Positions 16,210 through 52,719 of a DNA stretch of 64,000 nucleotides are shown piece after piece. Numbering within the stretch: the stretch's first letter is position 1; the number at the start of each line of letters is the position of its first letter. The translations under genes were made by a program, and so were the position numbers. Source of the DNA: Antarctobacter heliothermus (GTDB lineage Bacteria > Pseudomonadota > Alphaproteobacteria > Rhodobacterales > Rhodobacteraceae); the NCBI RefSeq assembly GCF_002237555.1, contig NZ_CP022540.1, positions 1,620,501 to 1,684,500 of the forward strand, given 5' to 3'. The notes under the pieces are model-generated. The model was not told the DNA's origin and searched no databases. It was given only the letters and a program-made list of their open reading frames with translations.

Positions 16210-16749
16210 ATGAAGCGGGTTCTGGCCCTTGGCTTGACGATTGCGGCGGCGGGAGCTGTGGCCGATCCTGTCACCTATGCCTTTGAATGGGCGGGTGGCG
16301 GCGGCTATGCGATCAAAGGGGCGCTGCAGTTTGATGACGCGGCTTACACCGGGAGATTTGTCCGGGAACAGGACCTGAGCTGTTTTGTGATTGAGGGCAG
16401 CAAAGACGGTGAGGACGTGGGGCGCTGGGCGTTGACCATGTTGAATGAGCAGACGTCGTGGCGGATGCATTTCGATCCCGTGTTGGGCCGCTTTCTGGTC
16501 GAAGGGGAGGGCGTCTGGATGCCTCAGGCTTGGAATATGAATGGGGAGGGGATCGACTGCGGTGAGGGTGGTTTTGGCTTTAACATCGGCAATGCGGCGC
16601 AGGATATCTGCGTCGATAATCAGCTGATTTTTGAGAGCCAGGTGACCCCGGAAGAGCCGTTTTTGGCGGCTCGGATGGATGATTTTGAGTTCCCTCGCGA
16701 TGCCTGCATCGCGCCGCCCTTATTGGGGTGGTTGCGCACCGGGAATTGA
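16210..16749 (+). CDS. Secreted or periplasmic protein of unknown function
   Basis: 179 residues; ATG behind AAGGAGG (16196-16202). It starts with a clear signal peptide (KRVLALGLTIAAAGAVA-DP). The mature part is rich in Gly, Phe, Trp and acidic residues and has four cysteines (in LSCF, IDCG, DICV and DACI), so disulfides are likely. I do not recognise a family. The last four codons, including the stop, are exactly duplicated (two 12-bp units, 16738-16761), so a second TGA follows in frame. Directly after begins copy A of the 74-bp palindromic element. It is divergent from the zinc-ribbon gene. Confidence 0.7.
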   Translation: MKRVLALGLTIAAAGAVADPVTYAFEWAGGGGYAIKGALQFDDAAYTGRFVREQDLSCFVIEGSKDGEDVGRWALTMLNEQTSWRMHFDPVLGRFLVEGEGVWMPQAWNMNGEGIDCGEGGFGFNIGNAAQDICVDNQLIFESQVTPEEPFLAARMDDFEFPRDACIAPPLLGWLRTGN

Positions 16750-16761
16750 ACCGGGAATTGA
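16738..16761 (+). repeat. 12-bp tandem duplication covering the stop codon
   Basis: Unit ACCGGGAATTGA occurs twice without a gap. Each unit contains an in-frame TGA, so the duplication gives the gene two tandem stops and abuts the palindromic element at 16762. Confidence 0.85.
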
Positions 16762-16835
16762 GGTGTCCACGCGTGGACAGAAACGCGCCTTATAAAAATC
16801 AATGGGTTACAGAGACGTTTTTACATTCCGTTAGG
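16762..16835. repeat. Copy A of a 74-bp palindrome-plus-block intergenic element
   Basis: Palindrome TGTCCACGCGTGGACA (16764-16779), 14 unrelated bases, then AAAAATCAATGG, TTACAGAG, CGTTTTTAC and TCCGTTAGG separated by 1, 1 and 2 variable bases. The same order and spacing recur at 51421-51494. The element lies between convergent genes and starts right after a stop codon. Confidence 0.85.
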
Positions 16836-16867
16836 AAACTGGATGACCCGACGCGGGCAGAGGGTGG

Positions 16868-17413
16868 TTAGGCGGGGCCCTTCCAGATCACCGGGGTGAC
16901 ATAGACAATACTGTCATCGACACTGACCATCACATCGCCGTCCTGAATATTGACCTGAAGCTTCATCGTGCGGCCGGCCAATTCTGCCAGAGCGGCTGTG
17001 TCGGCCTCGGACAAATTGATCACCTGAAGATTGTCAAACCGCGTGGTGCTGTTCTTGATCTTGTCCCACCACATGTCAGCCGTGCGGCCGCCATAGGGGT
17101 AGACGATCACCTGAGAGGCCTTGGCGCAGGATTGACGGACCACCTTTTCGCTGGGCAGACCCAGAGCAACCCAGACATCCAGTTCACCACTCAGGCTTTT
17201 CTGCCAGATGTCCGGCTCATCATCCGTAGACAACCCCTTGGTCATCTCCAGATGCTCATGCGCATTCAGGGCAAAGGCGACAAGGCGCACCATCAGCCGT
17301 TCATCCGTCTCTGACGGATGTTTGGCGACTGTCAGCTTGTGGGTCTCATAATAATGGCGATCCATGTCAGAGACAGAGAGTTCGACTTTATAAATAGTGG
17401 CTTTTTGCGCCAT
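16868..17413 (-). CDS. yaeQ: YaeQ family protein
   Basis: 181 residues from ATG 17413, the same length as E. coli YaeQ; a TTG 12 bases upstream is less likely. Family landmarks: an N-terminal MAQKATIYKVELSVSD, HYYETHKLTVAKHPSETDERLM, then GELDVWVALGLPSEK, and a C-terminal domain ending with WKG. YaeQ proteins have a PD-(D/E)XK-nuclease-like fold without proven activity; in E. coli the gene was reported to compensate for loss of RfaH, which other work disputes. It lies between the DUF3228 gene and copy A of the palindromic element. Confidence 0.9.
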   Translation of the reverse strand: MAQKATIYKVELSVSDMDRHYYETHKLTVAKHPSETDERLMVRLVAFALNAHEHLEMTKGLSTDDEPDIWQKSLSGELDVWVALGLPSEKVVRQSCAKASQVIVYPYGGRTADMWWDKIKNSTTRFDNLQVINLSEADTAALAELAGRTMKLQVNIQDGDVMVSVDDSIVYVTPVIWKGPA

Positions 17414-17535
17414 GATCTGTCCCAAACCTGCAAGGATTGGGATGCCTACTCTGTCCGAGGGCGTTTGAAAAGCGGATTGGGAAACGGCGCAGAGGCGCGG
17501 GCAAGGGGCGCGCTCACGAGGGGGCGCTGTGTCCC

Positions 17536-50735: not shown

Positions 50736-50780
50736 CCGTCGGGCGGCGGGATTTGAGCATTTGACGTGAGAAGAAGCAGC

Positions 50781-51419
50781 ATGGCACAAGACCTGACCCC
50801 AGAGGACATTGAAAAACTGTTCACGCGGTCGGATGGCAGCTATCTCTGCGCGCGCTGGGGCCGTCCCCTGTCGCCGATCGTCTTTGGCGTCGAAGAGACC
50901 ACACTGCAGGTGATCAAAGGCGCGTTTGAGGCTGTTTGCGTGCTGGCGGGGCATCAGATGGCCGAAACGGATCCGGAACTGGGCGCCAACGTCATGGTAT
51001 TCTTCTGCCGCGATTGGGCAGAGCTTCTCGATGTGCCGGACCTCGGTCGGATGATCGATGGCTTGGAAACGATGGTGGACCGGCTGGAGGCGGCGAACGC
51101 GAACCAGTACCGGGTGTTCCGTTTCGAAGCGGATGGCGGGATCAAGGCCTGCTTTGTTTTCCTTCGGATGGATGCGGAACTGGCCAAACTGCCCGCAGAA
51201 ACGCTGGCGTTGGGGCAGGTGGTGCAGTCGATCCTGCTGTGGTCAGACACGGCCTTTGCTGACCGGTCGGCGCTGGCGCAGGTCGGGGGCGGGCAGGTGA
51301 TCCTGCGCCCGGACATCGCCGATGTGATCCGGGCGGCTTATGATCCGGTGCTGCCGGTGGCGGCGACGGAGCCGGCCCATGCCTTGCGGCTGGCGGCGAG
51401 GATCGCGGCCGGACGTTGA
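50781..51419 (+). CDS. Conserved hypothetical protein
   Basis: 212 residues from ATG 50781. Soluble, no signal or membrane segment, slightly acidic. Recognisable stretches are YLCARWGRPLSPIVFGVEE, VMVFFCRDWAELLDVPDL and QSILLWSDTAF, which I associate only with Rhodobacterales proteins of unknown role. The start is 45 bases after ruvB, so it may be the last gene of the ruv operon. Copy B of the palindromic element starts two bases behind its stop. Confidence 0.7.
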   Translation: MAQDLTPEDIEKLFTRSDGSYLCARWGRPLSPIVFGVEETTLQVIKGAFEAVCVLAGHQMAETDPELGANVMVFFCRDWAELLDVPDLGRMIDGLETMVDRLEAANANQYRVFRFEADGGIKACFVFLRMDAELAKLPAETLALGQVVQSILLWSDTAFADRSALAQVGGGQVILRPDIADVIRAAYDPVLPVAATEPAHALRLAARIAAGR

Positions 51420-51420
51420 G

Positions 51421-51494
51421 GGTGTCCACGCGTGGACACGCACCAGTGTCAGAAAAATCAATGGCTTACAGAGGCGTTTTTACGATCCGTTAGG
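51421..51494. repeat. Copy B of the 74-bp palindrome-plus-block intergenic element
   Basis: Palindrome TGTCCACGCGTGGACA (51423-51438, extended to 18 bp here), 14 variable bases, then AAAAATCAATGG, TTACAGAG, CGTTTTTAC and TCCGTTAGG at exactly the spacings of copy A (16762-16835). It lies between convergent genes, right after a stop codon. Confidence 0.85.
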
Positions 51495-51531
51495 GATTGG
51501 CCGGACGAGAGAGGGACTGCGCAAGGCCCTG

Positions 51532-51555
51532 GCTTCTTCTCTGTACAAATACCCC
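51532..51555 (-). repeat. Copy 3 of the GGGTATTT...AGAAGAA 3'-end motif
   Basis: Minus-strand GGGGTATTTGTACAG followed by AGAAGAAGC, behind the trpS stop on the trpS strand, preceded by the hairpin at 51561-51577. Confidence 0.55.
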
Positions 51556-51560
51556 GGGGT

Positions 51561-51577
51561 CCGGGGCAGAGCCCCGG
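51561..51577. other. GC hairpin (CCGGGGC/GCCCCGG) downstream of trpS
   Basis: 7-bp perfect stem, 3-base loop. Shares its core with the hairpin at 18156-18175. It precedes copy 3 of the 3'-end motif on the trpS strand. Confidence 0.55.
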
Positions 51578-51610
51578 TCCGGCAGTGCAACACGCGCAGA
51601 CATTGAACCC

Positions 51611-52639
51611 TCAGCGCACCATGCCGACAATCTCATAGGTCTTCGCCAGGATCGGGGAGGCGATTTCGCGTGCGCGCTCTGACCCGCGGCGCAGGATGGC
51701 GTCGATCTCTGCCGGATCGGCGGTCAGACGCTTCATCTCGGTCGAAATCGGCTCCAGCTTGGCAACCGCCAGATCGGCCAGTGCGGGCTTGAAGGTGCCA
51801 AATTGCTGGCCGGCGTGTTCTGCAATGACCTGATCGACGGTCAGATCCGCAAGAGCGGCGTAGATGTTTACCAGATTACGCGCCTCGGGGCGTTCAGCCA
51901 GACCCTCGGCGTTGTCGGGCAGCGGTTCCGGGTCGGTCCGCGCCTTGCGGATCTTTTGCGCGATGGTGTCCGCATCATCGGTCAGGTTGATGCGGCTCAT
52001 GTCCGAGGGATCGGATTTCGACATCTTCTTGGACCCGTCGCGCAGCGACATGACGCGCGTGGCCGCACCCTCGATCACCGGCTCTGTCACCGGAAAGAAA
52101 TCGACGCCGTAGTCGTTGTTGAACTTGATCGCGATGTCGCGGGTCAGTTCAAGGTGCTGTTTCTGATCCTCGCCCACCGGCACATGGGTGGCGTGGTACA
52201 CGAGGATATCGGCGGCCATCAGCGCGGGATAGGCGAGCAGTCCCAGCGAGGCGTTCTGCGTGTTCTTGCCGGCCTTGTCCTTCCACTGGGTCATCCGCTG
52301 CATCCAGCCCATTCGGGCGACACAGTTGAAGATCCATGCCAGTTGCGCGTGCTCGGCCACCTGGCTCTGGTTGAAGAGGATGGATTTCTCCGGATCGACA
52401 CCCGAGGCGATGAACCCGGCGGTCAGTTCCCGCGTCTGGCGGCGCAGTGCCTCTGGGTCTTGCCACACCGTGATCGCGTGCATGTCGACCATGCAAAAGA
52501 CCGACTGGACGCCTTGATCCTGGCTGTCGGCAAAACGTTTCAGCGCGCCAAGGTAATTGCCCAGCGTCAGCCCGCCGGAGGGCTGGATGCCAGAGAAAAC
52601 GCGCGGGGTGAAGGCGGAGTTGGGCTGGCCGTCTGACAT
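51611..52639 (-). CDS. trpS: Tryptophan--tRNA ligase
   Basis: 342 residues from ATG 52639. Class I synthetase: [17 protein letters not shown] (HIGH-equivalent TLGN), DMHAITV, and [10 protein letters not shown] (KMSKS loop). It charges tRNA-Trp. The open frame upstream to 52705 lacks a start signal. Divergent from the rhomboid gene. Confidence 0.97.
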
Positions 52640-52719
52640 GGGAACTCCCGAAGGGTGTGGATATTGCTGCGCGGCTGGCTTACCCATGCGGCTGAGGACC
52701 GTCAAGGAAGAGGCAGACC

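Follow-up and report, generated by a model that had tools for sequence, protein, structure and literature searches.

Here we describe a repeated DNA element, E, which occurs twice (copies A and B) in a 64,000-nucleotide stretch of the Antarctobacter heliothermus chromosome (the window; G000:C1:1620501-1684500, G000 being the 5.33-Mb genome of 4 contigs and C1 its 4.72-Mb chromosome). Taken together with the distribution of a candidate orphan ParB-like protein, X, the features of this element suggest that it is probably a parS-like site, folded by IHF, at which X is loaded and which would work like a small centromere. E extends over ~84 bp and combines a palindrome, a 14-nt spacer, a match to the IHF consensus and a right block, with an overall consensus of approximately GGG(C/G)-TGTCCACGCGTGGACA-N14-AAAATCAATGGGTTACAGAG-RCGNTTTTAC-N6-TTARG-N3-TTTG.

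An earlier note on this stretch had described a 74-bp element in which a palindrome and, after 14 freely varying bases, a block seem to be read together. Both window copies bear out this arrangement (palindrome at 16764-16779 and 51423-51438, second block AAAAATCAATGGnTTACAGAG beginning at 16794 and 51453, respectively), and the fixed spacing and joint conservation support the combined reading. The shared element is, however, longer than supposed: in a positional profile of 55 copies, conservation is sharp between about -36 and +48 relative to the block, and beyond these limits it falls to background. Likewise, the gap is fixed in length and mostly free in sequence, being different in every one of these 55 copies, but a G is present at -7 in 48 of them. 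The second block had 0 matches in 100 shuffles; searched for by itself, with up to 3 mismatches, the palindrome gave at least two matches in 12/100 shuffles and is hence less striking. The combination of the two is far beyond chance. Further, the AATCAATGGGTTA stretch of E is a perfect match to what we take to be the IHF consensus, WATCAANNNNTTR. Counting both strands, the strict consensus is seen twice in the 64-kb window, both times within E, and it occupies a fixed place in 50/71 E copies of the genome, with 2 strict matches elsewhere in 240 kb of G000 loci. The two window copies are laid out as follows:

16758..16843, plus strand: copy A, entire conserved stretch (profile over 55 copies; model match G000:C1:1637260-1637338)
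16764..16779, plus strand: copy A palindrome TGTCCACGCGTGGACA, 16 bp (sequence)
16780..16793, plus strand: copy A spacer, 14 nt, fixed in length and mostly free (sequence, profile)
16797..16809, plus strand: copy A IHF consensus WATCAANNNNTTR (consensus match, one of the 2 in the window)
16815..16835, plus strand: copy A right block ACGTTTTTAC-N5-GTTAGG (sequence, profile)
51417..51502, plus strand: copy B, entire conserved stretch (profile, model match)
51423..51438, plus strand: copy B palindrome TGTCCACGCGTGGACA, 18 bp counting the flanking G/C (sequence)
51439..51452, plus strand: copy B spacer, 14 nt (sequence)
51456..51468, plus strand: copy B IHF consensus WATCAANNNNTTR (consensus match)
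51474..51494, plus strand: copy B right block GCGTTTTTAC-N5-GTTAGG (sequence, profile)

Far from being the chance duplication that the earlier note allowed for, should only two copies exist genome-wide, E is a dispersed chromosomal repeat. A search of G000 with the block pattern recovered 55 copies, all on C1 (reversed control, 0), and a sequence model built from these identified 72 full-length copies, each with an E-value of 1.6e-7 or lower and again all on C1. None lies on the other contigs of the genome (p 1.6e-4 for chromosome-only placement), and in a second carrier, G268, the 5.56-Mb contig carries 46 of the 47 matches listed, out of 76 in all. With dnaA at 1.13 Mb as a proxy for the origin, the G000 copies are evenly spread from origin to terminus (Kolmogorov-Smirnov p 0.73), and no clustering at either was found. 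Copies are co-oriented with the replication fork in 48/72 cases (p 0.006); we rejected a polarity like that of the FtsK-orienting polar sequences (KOPS), since the bias is too weak for such a site and may simply reflect gene orientation.

The constraints on E emerge from a comparison with G001, which we take to be A. heliothermus DSM 11445 and treated as a second species. Among the 66 copies fetched from G001 are orthologues of 62 of the 72 G000 copies, each behind the same upstream flank, and 10 copies are without a partner there. In the 61 pairs that entered the divergence comparison, 52/976 palindrome sites and 87/1159 core sites differ, as against 276/854 in the spacer; without L015, L025 and L158, where the palindrome is shifted or degraded, the values are 22/928 for the palindrome and 256/812 for the spacer. 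Because a single model was used to find the pairs in both genomes, conserved copies are favoured and strongly decayed orthologues may have been missed; the contrast of palindrome and core with spacer, however, lies within each element. Copying or gene conversion would have homogenised the spacer too, and its divergence thus argues for purifying selection on separate pieces. Palindrome and core are therefore best read as DNA sites under purifying selection, held as two pieces at a fixed distance.

These figures also bear on the possibility that E is a non-autonomous mobile element, akin to miniature inverted-repeat transposable elements or repetitive extragenic palindromes (REPs), spread by a transposase. 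The element is indeed interspersed, intergenic and patchy between genera, and in G001 and G002 the junction corresponding to that of copy B lacks the element; one empty junction showed no clean footprint. However, the positions of E are orthologous, the spacers differ in all 55 copies and selection acts on palindrome and core but not on the spacer; moreover, a Y1 transposase (REP-associated tyrosine transposase, RAYT; Y1_Tnp) was found in 0/15 genomes, 8 of them with E, and neither terminal inverted repeats nor target duplications were seen in the 55 aligned copies. We consider this origin very improbable, and on the same grounds the mobile-element and recombination-site proposals of the earlier note are not supported. 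Two E patterns had no match in viral contigs, and no match was found in PLSDB plasmids; a phage origin was rejected, the single match, of 27 bp and shared by two records of the same Staphylococcus phage, being a chance one.

E is strongly polar with respect to genes. The relation to gene ends was tested on 206 located copies, of which 195 belong to the five genomes considered here (L161 and L221, where the score matrix failed to locate E, are omitted from later counts). A long plus-strand open reading frame (ORF) ends -3 to 20 bp from the palindrome in 118/195 copies, against 19/195 in a mirrored test at the right end of E and 112/3171 at random positions; the polarity is fixed in all five genomes, the palindrome being the part of E nearest the stop codon. 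In the window, the flanking genes are:

16210..16749, plus strand: ORF upstream of copy A, 179 amino acids, no Pfam match, stop codon 14 bp before the palindrome
16868..17425, minus strand: convergent neighbour of copy A, YaeQ family (ORF and Pfam)
50766..51419, plus strand: ORF upstream of copy B, 217 amino acids, no Pfam match, stop codon 3 bp before the palindrome
51611..52705, minus strand: convergent neighbour of copy B, class I (W/Y) aminoacyl-tRNA synthetase family (ORF and Pfam)

The convergent placement noted earlier holds for these two copies but does not extend to the genome as a whole, where a rough gene caller assigned 32 of the 72 copies to clean convergent, 20 to tandem and 20 to other or unclear contexts. 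Beside copy B, at window positions 51528-51580, is a terminator-like sequence, CTTCTTCTCTGTACAAATACCCCGGGGTCCGGGGCAGAGCCCCGG, part of which recurs several times in G002-G005.

Such stop-codon anchoring and fixed polarity would also be expected if E were a local insulator or terminator at gene ends, affecting the gene upstream by means of a protein roadblock or an RNA hairpin, a role that we nevertheless regard as unlikely. The consensus has no T-run after the palindrome, and in G000 and G001 together an intrinsic terminator precedes E in 10/25 copies with a gap of more than 25 bp and follows it in 10/92 close copies, so that E sometimes lies outside the transcript. The copies behind an intrinsic terminator suggest that the DNA, rather than the transcript, is what gets read; the detector found intrinsic terminators at 5/71 control gene ends, so a test for terminator substitution has little power. 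No conserved fold emerged either: for the 55 copies of G000, alifold predicted 3 pairs, in none of which both sides had changed, and we rejected the RNA reading, including the structured RNA with covariance for which the earlier note had advised looking. Rfam had no match in the window. The spacer, constant at 14 nt but free in sequence, is consistent with DNA geometry, and similar copy numbers across genera, mostly behind different genes in the loci that were compared, point to a global role.

The recurrence of E in other Rhodobacterales, which the earlier note had raised, is evident within the family, where a broader model matched 26/394 genomes. Beyond Antarctobacter, the exact core is present in Tateyamaria (three genomes), Marinibacterium profundimaris, Allosediminivita pacifica and the metagenome-assembled genome SP126. 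Deeper scoring gave 70 matches in G001, 76 in G268, 81 in G287 (taken as Allosediminivita) and 73 in G076, with 5, 7, 2 and 2 in the E-poor congeners G002, G003, G004 and G005; these counts take E-values up to 0.01 and may contain a small number of opposite-strand matches to the palindrome alone. Across genera the palindrome shows distinct dialects: Antarctobacter has mostly TGTCCACGCGTGGACA, the fetched loci of G268, Marinibacterium and SP126 have TGTCCCACGCGTGGGACA, G076 has TGTCCCACGRTGGGACA with an 8+1+8 layout, most Tateyamaria loci have TGTCCCA-N3-TGGGACA, and Allosediminivita has mostly TGTCCCGGGCCGGGACA. Some sites of different genera lie behind the same gene (L032/L205-L321, L156/L192-L329, L010/L201-L316), and most compared loci do not. 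Such a joint change of palindrome at many sites is what one would expect if E co-evolved with a single binding protein. Readings of the blocks as DnaA boxes or CtrA sites, made by eye against the generally known consensus sequences, were dropped, since the palindromes of other genera break them.

Several further patterns were observed among these copies and their surroundings. In one sub-class of E (L160, L162-L164, L166, L167 and, less exactly, L159) the spacer is conserved, unlike in other copies, being largely AAGGTGACGTAGCGTCTTCAATGGCTTGCAGAG, and the right palindrome arm is weakened (GTGGCGG) in several copies. Four Allosediminivita loci (L326, L328, L331 and L335) have extra direct half-sites, GTGTCCCGGG or similar, before the palindrome in ~10-bp steps, and TGTCC is present upstream of the palindrome in 6/17 copies of this genus, as if a protein could bind in rows. 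Finally, three congeners with few E relics, G003, G004 and G005, carry another repeat (L294-L299, L360-L383) of the form (GTACG)TTTTGTACAAAACGTAC-N12-CATTTTGTACAAA, often then CGTTAACC, at 18-20 distinct sites per genome; it has no match in G000-G002 and, with a stricter pattern, none in 294 other family genomes, and 2/11 of its junctions seen are E junctions of G000, that of copy B included.

As to the protein that might read E, scans of five genomes for the ParB_N domain found a canonical-looking ParB in each and, in the carriers G000 and G268, an extra chromosomal protein, X (52-54% identical between the two):

G000:C1:1361273-1362118, minus strand: X, orphan ParB-like protein, 282 amino acids, outside the window (ParB_N scan)

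X had no tblastn match, even at an E-value of 10, in the ParB_N loci of the non-carriers G002, G005 and G008; it is thus present in the two carriers and absent from the three non-carriers tested. An E copy behind clpB, recognised by its ClpB domains, is 2.3 kb away in G000 and 2.0 kb away in G268; X adjoins a fasciclin-domain gene and a glutamate-synthase-like gene, and no ParA-like domain was found in the scanned neighbouring ORFs of the two loci. The named holders of X among the matches listed include Tateyamaria species, Marinibacterium profundimaris, Antarctobacter jejuensis, Tropicimonas, Citreimonas and Tabrizicola. X falls below the NCBI cut-offs for ParB and Noc; nevertheless, its profile has Noc as the best PDB match (E 3e-12), and its structure model (predicted local distance difference test score 91) matches Noc, ParB and KorB. 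An N-terminal amphipathic helix was not seen in the model (coil 1-4, strand 5-9), and the ParA-binding motif, in the form given in PMC12704722, was not found in the first 60 residues of 5/5 X proteins. X is accordingly modelled as a ParB-family fold, predicted to be a CTPase, that lacks this motif. G268 additionally encodes, at C1:2566297-2569611 and 2659851-2663165 (L400, L401), two identical chromosomal genes for a long ParB_N-domain protein.

The closest plasmid relatives of X are the ParB proteins of replication-initiator/ATPase/ParB modules (34.6-37.5% identity over 94-97% of X in the best 12 rows). Of the 443 records matched, 4 plasmid loci were inspected, and each of the four contains the odd palindrome GGTTTCGC-N-GCGAAACC, perfect over 17 bp. 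Leisingera has three copies, all behind parB, and Alisedimentitalea has one, located within the start of parB; in Paracoccus and Sulfitobacter one lies directly behind the parB stop codon, and one more is present in each. The E palindrome of G076 shares the 8+1+8 layout of these plasmid palindromes. It is possible, though in our view rather doubtful, that X is a bystander and that E is a selected, IHF-assisted site for some other protein, such as a nucleoid protein, a recombinase or a regulator. The site-level evidence, namely copies, orthologues, IHF consensus, selection and gene ends, is independent of X, the link to which comes from five genomes, shared named genera, linkage and homology. 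Nonetheless, the X family has the right fold and a distribution that matches as far as tested, and the four plasmid loci of its relatives hold a palindrome of similar geometry at their own locus.

Among the earlier suggestions, that of a protein-binding, chromosome-organisation site is well supported: E is dispersed, confined to the main chromosome in G000, polar to gene ends, apparently selected and furnished with a perfect IHF consensus in its second block. In the parS-like loading-site model, we infer that an X dimer would bind the palindrome, while IHF would bind the AATCAANNNNTTA core and bend the DNA so as to return the right block to the palindrome-bound dimer; the TGTCC at the right-block end in Allosediminivita may mark the place where the bend would return the DNA. 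X would then be loaded as a clamp onto neighbouring DNA at ~70 chromosomal places, as in ParB/Noc proteins, and the resulting network could serve chromosome organisation or anchoring. The position of E, mostly just behind stop codons, would be compatible with transcription. The final role may be compaction, anchoring, division occlusion or SMC loading.

Several observations weigh against this proposal. The genome-wide scan for X covers five genomes, 3 without E and, of the carriers counted, G000 and G268. An X gene within 2.5 kb of E has a ~7% chance by itself, as estimated from site density, and the two linked loci are one orthologous locus. X is named in A. jejuensis and Tabrizicola-like genera, which lie outside the E scoring, and Allosediminivita is not among the named X matches in two listings, which show 120 rows out of 547 and 120 out of 160, the majority unnamed. 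Depending on the genus, the palindrome measures 16, 17 or 18 bp, an unusual change of spacing for one dimer family, and a TGTCC half-site ends the right block in 14/17 Allosediminivita copies and in 4/189 elsewhere. Finally, E sites are not excluded around the terminus, unlike the sites of Noc, and this even distribution, with the terminus included, counts against a role simply like that of Noc.

More broadly, we give about even chances to a scenario in which a second chromosomal 'centromere' system, one lacking ParA, operates in several genera of the Rhodobacteraceae. Here, a ParB of plasmid type would have been domesticated by the chromosome and would be loaded at ~70-80 IHF-folded sites behind stop codons all around it; the palindrome dialect would shift jointly across the sites from genus to genus, and sister species would have lost the system and retain decaying remnants of it. 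If true, this would be a chromosome-wide, IHF-reliant network of the ParB type outside both the origin-proximal parS cluster and the Noc lineage; to our knowledge, no Noc-like factor is known from these bacteria. In the open-licence PMC literature none of six E strings was found, and among the papers listed for dispersed intergenic repeats with IHF, for nucleoid occlusion or for orphan ParB proteins in these bacteria nothing on E came up. The existence of carriers beside congeners with relics only makes the function of E testable, and the dialect series (16, 17 and 18 bp; TGTCC-A, TGTCCC-A, TGTCCC-G) would offer matched protein/site pairs for the evolution of ParB specificity across dozens of sites.

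Among known systems, the bacterial interspersed mosaic elements of E. coli (BIME), including the RIB (reiterative ihf BIME) repeats, are interspersed and extragenic and have IHF sites. The Correia elements of Neisseria likewise contain an IHF site, according to PMC2229807. E resembles both in being an interspersed extragenic repeat with an IHF site and differs in the lack of a RAYT, in having no terminal inverted repeats seen and in the free spacer between its conserved parts. The Roseobacter/Paracoccus plasmid par loci are similar in having a ParB related to X and 17-bp odd palindromes, directly behind the parB stop codon in 2/4 loci. They differ in that an AAA-family ATPase gene, taken as ParA, adjoins parB, the sites are few, the palindrome sequence is another one and the strict IHF consensus was not seen in the stretches read. 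The Noc system with its Noc-binding sites (NBS) in Bacillus and Geobacillus, as described in PMC8429893 and PMC7333895, shares with ours an orphan ParB-family protein without a ParA-binding motif and tens of dispersed palindromes (72 for E); in contrast, E shows no terminus exclusion, has an added IHF site and a tie to stop codons, and the X model is without the N-terminal helix. In P1 parS, ParB repeats flank an IHF site and the IHF bend promotes ParB binding, as stated in PMC5016525, and E too combines a palindrome, an IHF consensus and a second block in ~84 bp. However, E is chromosomal and present in ~70 copies, with the palindrome on one side and a repeat on the other side clear only in Allosediminivita; further, a parA-parB operon adjoins the P1 site, whereas no ParA-like domain was found beside X at the two loci scanned and copies A and B have other neighbours. 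Hence, we file E as an element working like an IHF-assisted parS/NBS site, and not as a member of either family.
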